DNA of 58,105 nt from Propionivibrio sp. Its GTDB lineage: Bacteria > Pseudomonadota > Gammaproteobacteria > Burkholderiales > Rhodocyclaceae. Shown here in pieces: positions 38,987 through 42,228 of this stretch. Below the pieces are notes generated by a model. That model was not told the DNA's origin. It was given only the letters and a program-made list of their open reading frames with translations, and made no database searches. The position numbers were made by a program, and so were the translations under genes. Positions within the stretch are counted from its first letter, which is position 1, and the number at the start of each line of letters is the position of its first letter. The stretch is from NCBI GenBank assembly GCA_029975435.1, contig JARKPC010000112.1:1-58105 (forward strand), in the 5' to 3' direction.

Positions 38987-39652
38987 ATGAAAATCGCAAA
39001 GCACCTGCCCTTCGCCGCCGTGTTGGTTTTGCTTACAGCCGCTCCGTCCGCCGCCCTGCATGCCGCCGACGCCAGGACAAGTTTCTTTGTCACCAGTGAA
39101 GGCTCCGGGAAAGGCGGCGACCTCGGCGGACTCGCCGGTGCGGACAAGCACTGCCAGTCGCTGGCCGAAGCAGCCGGTATCGGCAAGCGCACTTGGCGCG
39201 CCTACCTGAGCACCAGCGCCACGGCCAGCACTCCGGCGATCAACGCCCGCGACCGCATCGGCAAAGGCCCTTGGTACAACGTCAAGGGCGAATTGATTGC
39301 GCGCAATGTCGATGAGCTGCACCGCGAAAACAACCTCAACAAACAAACCGCACTTACCGAAAAAGGCGAGATCGTGAACGGGAGGGGCGACAATCCCAAC
39401 CAGCACGACATCCTGACCGGATCGGATTCGATGGGCATGGCTTTCCCAGCCGGCGAGGACACCACGTGCGGCAATTGGACCAGCAGCGCCAGTGGCGGCT
39501 CGGCCCAGGTCGGCCACCACGACCGCACGGGACTGGATCTGAAGCAACCGGCCAAGTCGTGGAACCACTCGCACCCATCGCGAGGCTGCAGCGTGGACGC
39601 TTTGCGCAGTTCGGGCGGGAACGGACGCCTCTATTGCTTCGCGGTGAAGTGA
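38987..39652 (+). CDS. Secreted lectin-like (C-type-lectin/endostatin fold) protein
   Basis: A 221-residue exported protein with a signal peptide (LPFAAVLVLLTAAPSAALHA). The mature part begins FFVTSEGSGKGGDLGGLAGADKHCQ and contains WRAYLSTS, CGNWTSSAS and a final GCSVDALRSSGGNGRLYCFAVK. The spaced Cys/Trp pattern suggests a C-type-lectin-like fold stabilised by disulfides; the ligand is unknown. AAGGAG precedes the ATG. It is the last gene of the ECF sigma operon and so a likely member of that regulon. Confidence 0.72.
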   Translation: MKIAKHLPFAAVLVLLTAAPSAALHAADARTSFFVTSEGSGKGGDLGGLAGADKHCQSLAEAAGIGKRTWRAYLSTSATASTPAINARDRIGKGPWYNVKGELIARNVDELHRENNLNKQTALTEKGEIVNGRGDNPNQHDILTGSDSMGMAFPAGEDTTCGNWTSSASGGSAQVGHHDRTGLDLKQPAKSWNHSHPSRGCSVDALRSSGGNGRLYCFAVK

Positions 39653-39724
39653 TTCGAGACAGAAACGGCAATGCCCGCGCGCAACGCCGGGGGTTGCCGT
39701 AGTCGTTGACCTGTTGAGGACTAC

Positions 39725-39744
39725 GGCAATCGTCCGATTGCCGC
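39725..39744. repeat. Inverted repeat in the 395-bp gap before the PEP-CTERM gene
   Basis: CGGCAATCG, a 2-nt spacer and its exact complement. There is no T-run after it, so a DNA-binding site or cruciform is as likely as a terminator for the preceding operon. Confidence 0.5.
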
Positions 39745-39805
39745 CGTCGATCCAGGCTGGACATCAGAGCATTCCGAAACAAAGGCCAGTGTGATTGAGA
39801 TCTGT

Positions 39806-39827
39806 AAGTGCTGCTTTGACAGCACTT
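39806..39827. promoter_or_regulatory. Candidate upstream activator site of the sigma-54 promoter
   Basis: AAGTGCTG, six nucleotides, CAGCACTT: a perfect 8-bp inverted repeat centred about 150 bp before the predicted transcription start. This is where enhancer-binding activators of sigma-54 promoters normally bind. The activator is not in the window. Confidence 0.45.
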
Positions 39828-39874
39828 GCCTCTGCTGGACGCGTGTCGGTTTTATTTACACAAATTGACAATAA

Positions 39875-39887
39875 AATCAATATATTT
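39875..39887 (+). promoter_or_regulatory. IHF-like site
   Basis: AATCAATATATTT matches the IHF consensus WATCAANNNNTTR except for the last base. It lies in an AT-rich tract between the upstream palindrome and the -24/-12 element, as expected for DNA bending at a sigma-54 promoter. Confidence 0.4.
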
Positions 39888-39943
39888 TTTTGCGGCCAAA
39901 TAAACCTTTGTTTAAATGTGGTTATTTCTGGGCGATCTGTTTG

Positions 39944-39957
39944 GGCACATTCTATGC
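39944..39957 (+). promoter_or_regulatory. Sigma-54 (-24/-12) promoter of the PEP-CTERM gene
   Basis: GGCACATTCTATGC: the invariant GG and GC are separated by exactly 10 nt, GGCAC is perfect and the -12 element is ATGC against TTGC. The predicted start is near 39969, giving a leader of about 80 nt. RpoN control of PEP-CTERM genes through PrsK/PrsR has been reported in floc-forming Betaproteobacteria. Confidence 0.6.
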
Positions 39958-39981
39958 GTCCCCCGAAAGCACAACCGCAAC

Positions 39982-40002
39982 AACCTCGGGCGCGAGGTTT
40001 TT
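39982..40002 (+). terminator. Hairpin with T-run in the PEP-CTERM leader
   Basis: AACCTCG and CGAGGTT arms around a 4-nt loop, followed by TTT after the stem. It lies only about 45 nt before the ATG and downstream of the predicted start site, so it could be an attenuator or a 5' stabilising hairpin. Confidence 0.45.
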
Positions 40003-40047
40003 CTGTGGGTGCAAAATTCTCGATAAACAACTCGAATAGGGGGCATC

Positions 40048-41307
40048 ATGAAAAGATTGACAAGGTTGGCAACTGTCATCTCGGTTGCCTGTGCAACATT
40101 ATCGGCGCCAGCGTTTGCTGCAACGGAAGCGGAGAAACAGGCCGCTATCCAAAGCGGCTTGGCGTGGATGGCGGCCAATCAGCAAGCTGATGGCCGCTGG
40201 AACTATGGCGAATACGGAGCCGGAGACGTCGCGGCTACCGCCGCCGCGCTTCTCGCCTTCCAGGAGCAGAAAGCCAAAGCAGGCGGCTGGTTCGGTGCGG
40301 ATTACTCCACTGTTGTCGCCAAAGGCTATCAGTACCTGATGAGCAATGCCCAGGCCGTCACCATTGGAGCTCAGCCAGCCGGGAACCCGGATACGAACAG
40401 CAACGGGATCGGAGTCAAGTTCGTTCTGGGAGGCGCCAATGGCCGGGACACCTATGTAACGGGATTGGTCCTTCCTGCCTTGGCCAAATACGGGAATCTG
40501 AACGACACGATCGCCGTCGGATCGCAAGCTGGAAGAACCTACGCTGCGGTGATCCAGGACACTGTCGACTATTTTGCTTGGGGGCAAAATGACAGCGGAT
40601 ACGCGCGGGGGGCATGGCGTTACTATGCAAATTCGGGCGATGCGGACAACTCCACAGCCCAGTGGCCGGTGGTCGGCATGCTCTACGCTCAGGCGGCTGG
40701 CGCCACGATCCCGACCTTCGTAAAAACGGAACTGAAGACTTGGATCGACTATATCCAGCATCCAAACGGAGGATCTGGTTACGATTCGCCGTATAGCTAT
40801 ACCAATGAGTCAAAGACCGGTGGCTTGCTGGTGGAGATGGTGTTCGCCGGATATGACGGCTACAAGGCTGGGGATACGCTGGGTAAGCAGGAAGCGCTCA
40901 ATTTCCTGGACACCAACTGGAAGAATGGCCCGAGCGATTGGTATGGAAACTTCGGACATCCGTACGCAATGTGGGGAATCTACAAAGGGCTGCAACTGAC
41001 GATCGGCCTTGACGACACTACCGAAATAGCCAATCTCCACGCTCCGGGCGATCTGGACGCCGGCAAGGTATGGAACTGGTGGGAAGACTACACTGACTAC
41101 TTGGTCCATAGCCAGAACTCCGATGGTTCGTGGACAGGTTATTGGTACTGGGGCAATGTTCTCGCCACTCCTTGGTACATCAACATCCTGAACGCCACGG
41201 AAATTGACGATGGCGGGAATGATGTTCCCGAACCGGGTACGCTGATGCTCCTTGGCGCAGGTTTGCTGGGAGTGCTGTCCATCCGACGCCGGCGTCAAAC
41301 GGTATGA
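40048..41307 (+). CDS. PEP-CTERM protein with prenyltransferase/squalene-cyclase-like repeats
   Basis: A 419-residue secreted protein. A signal peptide (ATVISVACATLSAPAFA) precedes an alpha/alpha-toroid region. It has QW-like repeats: QQADGRW at 45-51 and SQNSDGSW at 355-362, with Trp/Tyr/Gly-rich repeats between them. The C-terminal PEP-CTERM sorting signal starts VPEPGTLMLLG at 393, with a hydrophobic helix and RRRR tail, so exosortase should process it at the inner membrane. The catalytic DXDD motif of hopene cyclases is not seen, so a binding or structural role is more likely than cyclisation. A run of G residues before the ATG serves as Shine-Dalgarno. No exosortase gene is in the window. 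Confidence 0.85.
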   Translation: MKRLTRLATVISVACATLSAPAFAATEAEKQAAIQSGLAWMAANQQADGRWNYGEYGAGDVAATAAALLAFQEQKAKAGGWFGADYSTVVAKGYQYLMSNAQAVTIGAQPAGNPDTNSNGIGVKFVLGGANGRDTYVTGLVLPALAKYGNLNDTIAVGSQAGRTYAAVIQDTVDYFAWGQNDSGYARGAWRYYANSGDADNSTAQWPVVGMLYAQAAGATIPTFVKTELKTWIDYIQHPNGGSGYDSPYSYTNESKTGGLLVEMVFAGYDGYKAGDTLGKQEALNFLDTNWKNGPSDWYGNFGHPYAMWGIYKGLQLTIGLDDTTEIANLHAPGDLDAGKVWNWWEDYTDYLVHSQNSDGSWTGYWYWGNVLATPWYINILNATEIDDGGNDVPEPGTLMLLGAGLLGVLSIRRRRQTV

Positions 41308-41361: not shown

Positions 41362-41412
41362 TCGTATTAAATGTCCATACAATCGATGCCGGATTCAGAC
41401 GAGGAGCATTGC

Positions 41413-42228
41413 ATGTCGAAGTTTGCGTATCACACACAGCAACTGATTCTGACCGTGTTGACGGTTGTCACGCTTCTCGGCACAGGAACGGCGCGCGGAG
41501 CACTGGCGCCGGACAACGAAAAGCGACCGGCCCCCACCCTCGTTCCGCTGCTTGATGGCGGGACCACCGACGTCCAGCCGCTGATCGGTGACACGGAACT
41601 CCGCAATCTCGCCCCATCTCATGTCACCGAAGCCCTCAGCAAAGGTTTGTGGAACTCGGCATGCGCCGGCGCCACGATTATGCTGGCGAAACAACAACCG
41701 GTGATGGACGCCCTCGGGGTATTCGCGATGTGCGCCGCCCTGCGTAACGACACGAAAGCCCTCCATTCCGCCATGAAGCGCCTCGAGCAAGCGGAATTTC
41801 CCCCACGTTACTACGAACAACTCACTCAGGGCATTCTGCTGCTTAGGAAAAAGTCACCCGACAAGGCGGGCGCCATCTTCAGAAACGTGTTAGTGCAGCG
41901 TACCGACGATCCGCTCGCTCTGTATTTCGAGGGAGAGGCTTTGCACGCCCAGGGGAAAGACGCTGAAGCCATCGCCAGTTTCAAGTCCAGTCTGAAAGGC
42001 TGGCCCGACCATGCGCCGGCGCACTCTGCCGTAGCGCGCCTGACCACTACCGGCAATGCCTCGAAGAGCGCGCTCCAATCCGCTATTGCGTCGACCGAAC
42101 GCGCCACCAAGATCGATCCCACCAACCGGGCCTACTGGCAACAACTCGCGGACCTGTGTGATCGGGCAGGAGAAACGGGCCGGGCGAGCGCCATCCGGCT
42201 ACAGTGGCTGACACGTCGCAGCCCCTGA
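41413..42228 (+). CDS. Exported TPR-repeat protein
   Basis: A 271-residue protein with a signal peptide (LILTVLTVVTLLGTGTARGA) and TPR-like helical repeats in the second half (PLALYFEGEALHAQGKDAEAIASFKSSLKGWPDHAPAHS and a final AYWQQLADLCDRAGETGRASAIRLQW). It is probably a periplasmic scaffold. The ATG at 41413 has GAGGAG upstream; an earlier ATG at 41371 does not. It sits 105 bp after the PEP-CTERM gene in the same direction, so joint function is plausible but not shown. Confidence 0.72.
   Translation: MSKFAYHTQQLILTVLTVVTLLGTGTARGALAPDNEKRPAPTLVPLLDGGTTDVQPLIGDTELRNLAPSHVTEALSKGLWNSACAGATIMLAKQQPVMDALGVFAMCAALRNDTKALHSAMKRLEQAEFPPRYYEQLTQGILLLRKKSPDKAGAIFRNVLVQRTDDPLALYFEGEALHAQGKDAEAIASFKSSLKGWPDHAPAHSAVARLTTTGNASKSALQSAIASTERATKIDPTNRAYWQQLADLCDRAGETGRASAIRLQWLTRRSP

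Follow-up and report, generated by a model that had tools for sequence, protein, structure and literature searches.

The region from position 39844 to 39958 is very probably a promoter of the sigma-54 type that belongs to the PEP-CTERM/PrsR regulon, in which the likely site of the activator is the box TGTCGGTTTTATTTACA and not the palindrome that lies farther upstream. The box, the -24/-12 element, their co-occurrence and orientation, the periodicity of the distance between them and an enrichment of IHF-like sites are seen here, and from these we infer PrsR binding, IHF binding and transcription. The promoter is a member of a known regulon and site type, whose enhancer was misidentified in the preliminary description of this DNA. 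The periodicity of the box-to-GG distance and the enrichment of IHF-like sites describe the promoter class and appear to be new.

The box and the sigma-54 element

The window, meaning the whole stretch of 58,105 nucleotides that was analysed, is the complete contig G000:C250 of a 4.39-Mb assembly (292 contigs, 81.9% complete). Its PEP-CTERM gene is preceded by a gap of 395 bp (39653-40047), in and after which the following features are located.

39806..39827, no strand: palindrome AAGTGCTG-N6-CAGCACTT, a perfect 8-bp inverted repeat, unsupported as a PrsR site
39844..39860, + strand: PEP-CTERM box TGTCGGTTTTATTTACA (Haft motif 1), candidate PrsR site, 12/12 to consensus
39875..39887, + strand: IHF-like site AATCAATATATTT of the preliminary description, 8/9 positions, 69 bp before the GG
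39901..39913, - strand: second IHF-like candidate AAACAAAGGTTTA, 8/9 positions, 43 bp before the GG
39943..39958, + strand: -24/-12 sigma-54 element GGGCACATTCTATGCG, matching the consensus at 8/11 positions, its GG 83 nt from the box
39969, + strand: predicted transcript start, placed 12 nt after the GC
39982..40005, + strand: hairpin resembling a terminator, with a T tail, within the predicted leader, from the terminator scan
40048..41307, + strand: PEP-CTERM protein gene, 419 aa

The gene product carries a PEP-CTERM tail (PF07589, 34.8 bits against a cut-off of 20.7) and an N-terminus that, judged by eye, resembles a signal sequence. A Pfam search of the 40048-41307 product gave no family at an E value of 0.001 besides this tail. 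Six weak matches were obtained in a sequence search of the PDB, all of them chains of squalene-cyclase C-terminal domains (best E 0.046), and the predicted structure has a mean pLDDT of 35.3. The next gene (41371-42228) encodes a TPR protein that is weakly PrsT-like (TIGR02917, 41 bits against a cut-off of 312). An Rfam scan of 39600-40100 returned nothing at the gathering threshold, and the plasmid collection searched gave no match.

The box was not among the elements listed in the preliminary description. Its consensus, TGTCRR-N5-TTTACA (17 nt), was derived from 39 instances in the genus aligned on TTTACA, and the 5' half (TGTCRR) comes from this alignment and not from the published Haft logo. 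In their passages on the site, Haft et al. (2006; PMC1569441) report it upstream of 99 among 167 PEP-CTERM genes from Proteobacteria, as a 17-nt motif 1 that ends in TTTACA and is followed by a -24/-12 motif; the spacer between them has a mean of 62.8 nt (SD 10.6, range 32-92), and PrsR is proposed as the reader of motif 1. The site in the window shares the 17-nt motif ending in TTTACA, has its -24/-12 motif 2 at 83 nt, inside the published 32-92 nt, and likewise lies upstream of a PEP-CTERM gene with predicted PrsR control.

Exact copies of the box occur nine times in the assembly, compared with none for a reversed control pattern. Seven of the nine precede PEP-CTERM genes, always in the sense orientation, and GG-N10-GC lies downstream of all nine. 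The other two (on contigs C223 and C246) precede a 120-aa ORF and an ORF named by eye as hydrolase-like, and have their GG-N10-GC at 64 and 65 nt. When boxes with 11 or 12 of 12 positions are counted, 9 of the assembly's 10 PEP-CTERM genes have both a box and a -24/-12 element; for the tenth (L043), whose start codon is badly chosen, no good pair was seen. The orientation bias extends to the genus, where exact boxes in 108 upstream regions number 44 in the sense and 2 in the antisense direction.

The -24/-12 element had been described as GGCAC-N5-ATGC with 10 nt between GG and GC, and it is indeed present at 39943-39958, with the GG at 39944-39945 and the GC at 39956-39957, exactly 10 nt apart. 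Elements at least as good (8/11) appear in 281 of 2000 shuffled gaps, and the one in the window is convincing only together with the 12/12 box. A second GG-N10-GC (39920-39933) was judged weaker by eye. The expectation that -24/-12 elements would be found before other PEP-CTERM genes is borne out, since they recur together with TGTCRR-N5-TTTACA, and this co-occurrence supports the reading as a PEP-CTERM/PrsR-type sigma-54 promoter. The assembly also contains an rpoN gene.

Homologues of the gene have the same arrangement, with a box and promoter separated by 63 nt in L022, 96 nt in L024 and 95 nt in L025; the promoter of L024 is weak (7/11) and its leader is long. The window protein (40048-41304) is 75% identical to that of L022 (Deltaproteobacterium HGW-12) across distant lineages, and both genes carry the box-promoter pair upstream. 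Relatives at an E value of 1e-10 are found in 3 of 297 genomes of the family, the source genome included. This high identity with a distant organism, combined with such rarity within the family, suggests horizontal transfer of the gene. The same region is also present in the metagenome-assembled genome (MAG) of Candidatus Accumulibacter sp. UBA704, at 99.4% identity over 7257 bp. At such closeness, DNA conservation between the two is uninformative.

The upstream palindrome

The preliminary description proposed a design of three elements, in which the palindrome AAGTGCTG-N6-CAGCACTT would be a PrsR-type enhancer. The elements and their order are present, but the role of enhancer was assigned to the wrong sequence. 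The inverted repeat itself is real: its 8-bp arms at 39806-39827 are perfect, and the roughly 150 bp between it and the predicted start are a normal distance for an enhancer. In the assembly, however, the palindrome scan that had been suggested as a check found no other site with at most 2 mismatches. Sites with 3 mismatches number 33, compared with 21 for a reversed control pattern. Before 106 of the 108 PEP-CTERM genes of the genus set, the best match covers at most 12 of 16 positions, and the regions that exceed this value are those of the window and its 99.5% identical UBA704 copy. Upstream of the homologues L022, L024 and L025 the match is also at most 12/16. The sequence is thus absent before the other PEP-CTERM genes tested and before the homologues, the outcome that the preliminary description had itself named as refuting, and its status as a PrsR-type enhancer is extremely improbable.

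As DNA, the palindrome is not beyond chance, because a perfect 8-bp inverted repeat arises in 88 of 1000 gaps under mononucleotide shuffling (spacers of 0-20) and some such repeat is present in 27 of the 108 PEP-CTERM upstream regions. As RNA, it would form a fairly stable hairpin, and equally good folding was obtained in 3 of 200 shuffles. A role as terminator of the upstream gene was rejected, as no T run follows the hairpin and the terminator scan does not include it. Two near-identical inverted repeats of another sequence, AAGTGCATRACCCACTGCACTT, are located elsewhere in the assembly (G000:C68:38454-38475 and C117:26576-26597), and are possibly a small repeated element.

Spacing and IHF-like sites in the promoter class

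The spacing, measured between the box end and the GG, was compared among promoters with a box of at least 11/12 and a combined box and promoter score of at least 18. The genus set comprises 108 upstream regions (98 from other genomes and 10 from this one), hand-picked among the matches listed; in 28 genus genomes, the summed table gives 155 PEP-CTERM matches. The family set has 38 regions, hand-picked among the matches listed, and the class set has 20 of the 24 rows from outside this genome, likewise hand-picked. The family and class regions are mostly shorter domain matches (60-72 nt) and were chosen before their upstream sequences had been seen. Some upstream regions end at contig ends (19 nt in the case of L131). 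The start codons come from a simple rule based on hydrophobicity, which gives a wrong internal start in, for example, L043, L065, L068, L081 and L088, so real box-promoter pairs may be missed.

Qualifying pairs are found in 49/108 regions of the genus, 21/38 from other genera of the family and 13/20 from other families of the class, and the lack of a pair in part of the PEP-CTERM genes counts against the regulon interpretation. Three genus pairs that passed on the total and failed the box limit were dropped, and an earlier, different pairing rule had given 40/108 for the genus. With L094, the UBA704 copy of the window promoter, left out, 82 promoters were analysed.

Their spacings crowd at 51-55, 62-66, 74-76, 82-88 and 95-99 bp, with one at 43, so that clusters lie near 53, 64, 75, 86 and 97 bp in promoters drawn from the genus, the family and the class. 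The best period is 11.02 bp (R 0.778, n=82; bootstrap 10.78-11.24, with relatedness ignored), and in 74 of the 82 promoters the spacing is at most 2 bp out of phase. The genus, family and class sets share a phase centre near 64 (64.0, 63.9 and 63.8). When the phase is taken from the genus, the other sets are predicted with V 0.83 and u 6.82 (n 34), although these Rayleigh figures ignore relatedness. In each of five genus and family groupings, none of 20,000 sets of jittered spacings reached the observed value. Two controls in the 48 genus promoters gave much lower values, with R 0.13 for the distance from box to start codon and R 0.24 (n 91) for other GGs; sets of decoy GG/GC pairs had 1, 7 and 6 members, too small for use.

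Relatives often share a spacing, so the periodicity might have been inherited from a small number of ancestral promoter types and need not be a function of the helix face. Also pointing in this direction, related genes with unlike spacing differ by 9, 11, 12, 16, 18 and 20 bp, which is not always a whole turn. However, the periodicity survives when one promoter is retained per protein cluster (genus n 35, R 0.75; the cluster test covers genus and family), the same phase is found in other genera and families, and the distance from box to start codon shows no comparable periodicity in the same promoters. Ancestry is therefore improbable as the explanation.

For short loops, testing the helical phase is a standard approach (PMC8053113), and the in vivo fits of lac loops presented in PMC1762422 give helical repeats of 11.60 and 11.08 bp per turn, and 10.95 without HU. 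The likeness of 11.02 bp to the lac-loop repeat is suggestive only. At 10.5 bp, R is 0.70, 0.76 and 0.77 for genus, family and class, slightly below R at 11. Relaxed DNA has a repeat of 10.5 bp. It is quite possible, though we stop short of calling it probable, that proteobacterial PEP-CTERM promoters hold a PrsR box, an IHF bend and a sigma-54 promoter in phase on one face of the helix, with spacing classes whole turns apart, and that the period of 11.02 bp, greater than 10.5 and matching the 11.08 of lac loops in E. coli, would make it possible to measure, from genomes, how DNA is twisted in vivo in uncultured bacteria. Our confidence in this reading is lowered because R at 10.5 nearly equals that at 11.0 and because the spacings of related genes are in some cases not whole turns apart.

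The IHF consensus is WATCAANNNNTTR. Strict matches occur in 18 of 69 spacers (14/48 in the genus, 4/21 in the family), whereas a first-order Markov null gives 0.56 expected and a maximum of 4 in 300 draws. Mononucleotide shuffles yield about 8.7 spacers of 69 with an IHF-like site of at least 8/9 positions, whereas the observed number is 38; in 25 of these, the best site begins 30-34 bp before the GG. In the 60 nt that precede the box, none of the 69 promoters has a strict site. The involvement of IHF in the promoter design is therefore plausible.

The spacer in the window holds no strict site and two 8/9 sites, at -69 and -43 relative to the GG. The first, AATCAATATATTT, had been described as an IHF-like site near -90; it is present, with one departure from the consensus (its last base is T and not R), and such sites are enriched throughout the class, but its position is unusual, as it is the only one at -69 among the 38 best sites. 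The second lies near -44, where two other spacers have their site.

The spacing of 83 in the window is 3.0 bp off phase, the second-worst fit of the 82. This spacing, together with the -24/-12 score of 8/11 (most of the 82 score at least 9) and the unusual place of the first IHF-like site, makes the window promoter a poor representative of its class. The spacing and the score might mean that the promoter is weak, decayed or little used, and that the gene is transcribed from a sigma-70 promoter or in some other way. A sigma-70-like match (39857-39886, 9/12), which overlaps the box, and the terminator-like hairpin in the leader also fit such a situation. This hairpin, possibly a leader attenuator, begins 13 nt after the predicted start, and such hairpins occur in 2 of 48 leaders. 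On the other side, homologues retain the box and promoter, and the exact box and GG-N10-GC are kept in UBA704, though this MAG is too close to show selection. A weak or disused promoter is unlikely on balance, and the sigma-54 reading is preferred.

The regulators and the proposed mechanism

Profile searches of the 82% complete assembly found no PrsR or PrsK over cut-off, and a search for exosortase (PF09721) in the same assembly gave no match, which weighs against the regulon interpretation. In UBA704, epsB2, prsK, prsR and prsT are adjacent, and a hydrolase associated with the exosortase A system is near prsK-prsR. (The prsT gene of UBA704, L146 9720-12447, is split into two overlapping frames, by a frameshift or an assembly error.) A 7001-bp stretch of UBA704 compared with the assembly gives only 16 matches, of 64-83% identity and within the prsR part, so the prsK-prsR stretch looks unassembled; true loss is possible too, since gap and loss are indistinguishable at 82% completeness. 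Among 28 genomes of the genus, PrsK is over cut-off in 16.

About 20 proteins of the assembly score at least 250 bits to the PrsR model while remaining below its cut-off. Given these, and the failure to find PrsR itself, another NtrC-type activator could be imagined to work the promoter. The best TIGR02915 match, on contig C179 (455 bits against a cut-off of 502.6), was rejected as PrsR; it lies beside a kinase gene and acetoacetate-type genes (named by eye) and is probably AtoC. Activation by an NtrC-type protein other than PrsR is very unlikely, because the box corresponds to Haft motif 1 and because the sister MAG UBA704 has prsK-prsR, in the stretch that looks unassembled here. PrsR is accordingly retained as the presumed activator.

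Two genomes of the genus depart from the usual pattern. G304 (85% complete, no PrsK over cut-off) has a box-promoter pair in 0/7 tested upstream regions, and G299 has PrsK yet has pairs in 2/17. The two genomes have 10 and 36 PEP-CTERM matches, and the domain matches of their genes (L048-L071) are often 75-78 nt long. Perhaps their PEP-CTERM genes belong to another exosortase class with other regulation.

A closely related known system is pepA of Aquincola tertiaricarbonis RN12, which is RpoN-dependent and has a mapped start, mapped TGGCAC and CTGCTT elements and a predicted upstream enhancer (PMC9850573). Both pepA and the window gene encode PEP-CTERM proteins and have sigma-54-type elements with a predicted enhancer upstream, but pepA was studied by primer extension and in an rpoN1 mutant, whereas the window promoter is known from its sequence alone. 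Moreover, the window protein is unlike RN12 PepA (floc_PepA model, 30.3 bits against a cut-off of 80). In Desulfovibrio vulgaris, a distant organism, the sigma-54 response regulator DVUA0057 was located upstream of PEP-CTERM genes by DAP-chip, and a motif was predicted later (PMC3333781, PMC4641369); the likeness to the window consists in a sigma-54 regulator, here a presumed one, upstream of such genes.

Neither a prsK plasmid nor a prsK-prsR plasmid restored flocs to an epsB2 mutant (PMC9850573), the binding motifs of PMC3333781 are called unvalidated by that report itself, and the motif in PMC4641369 is unassignable to DVUA0057 alone. Within the portions of the literature that deal with these systems, control of PEP-CTERM genes by PrsR is not proven in print. 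Regarding spacing, the passages of PMC1569441 on the site give a mean and SD and mention neither helical phase nor IHF. A text search found "helical" absent from PMC3333781 and PMC4641369 and "IHF" absent from PMC4641369. Among the matches listed in a search of titles and abstract openings, which leaves aside most subscription journals, helical phasing or IHF is unreported for the PEP-CTERM site.

In the mechanism that we propose, a closed complex of RNA polymerase and RpoN would be poised at GGGCAC-N5-ATGCG. The oriented box TGTCGG-N5-TTTACA, which precedes the GG by 83 bp, would be bound by the phosphorylated form of PrsR, an NtrC-type protein paired with the kinase PrsK. The spacer, which is AT-rich, would then bend, with IHF probably helping in many promoters, so that the AAA+ domain of PrsR could reach sigma-54, hydrolyse ATP and open the promoter. 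The exported PEP-CTERM protein would thereby be switched on along with the rest of the regulon. With a loop as short as some 5-9 helical turns, box and promoter would function best on the same helix face, which may be why the spacings are grouped about 11 bp apart.

An IHF-assisted sigma-54 promoter with an enhancer, an IHF bend and a -24/-12 element is familiar from nifH. Compared with nifH, the enhancer here is close (81 of 82 promoters have it 51-99 bp ahead of the GG, and one has it at 43 bp), and the presumed activator is PrsR.

For tests of PEP-CTERM control, the DNA to mutate is the 17-bp box rather than the palindrome. With this natural series of promoters, one can readily test whether a sigma-54 activator works from one face of the helix, and the series possibly provides an estimate of the in vivo helical repeat from genome data. 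For the organism itself, the corrected assignment of the enhancer bears on PEP-CTERM proteins related to flocs and biofilms, in a bacterium akin to Accumulibacter, which accumulates phosphate.
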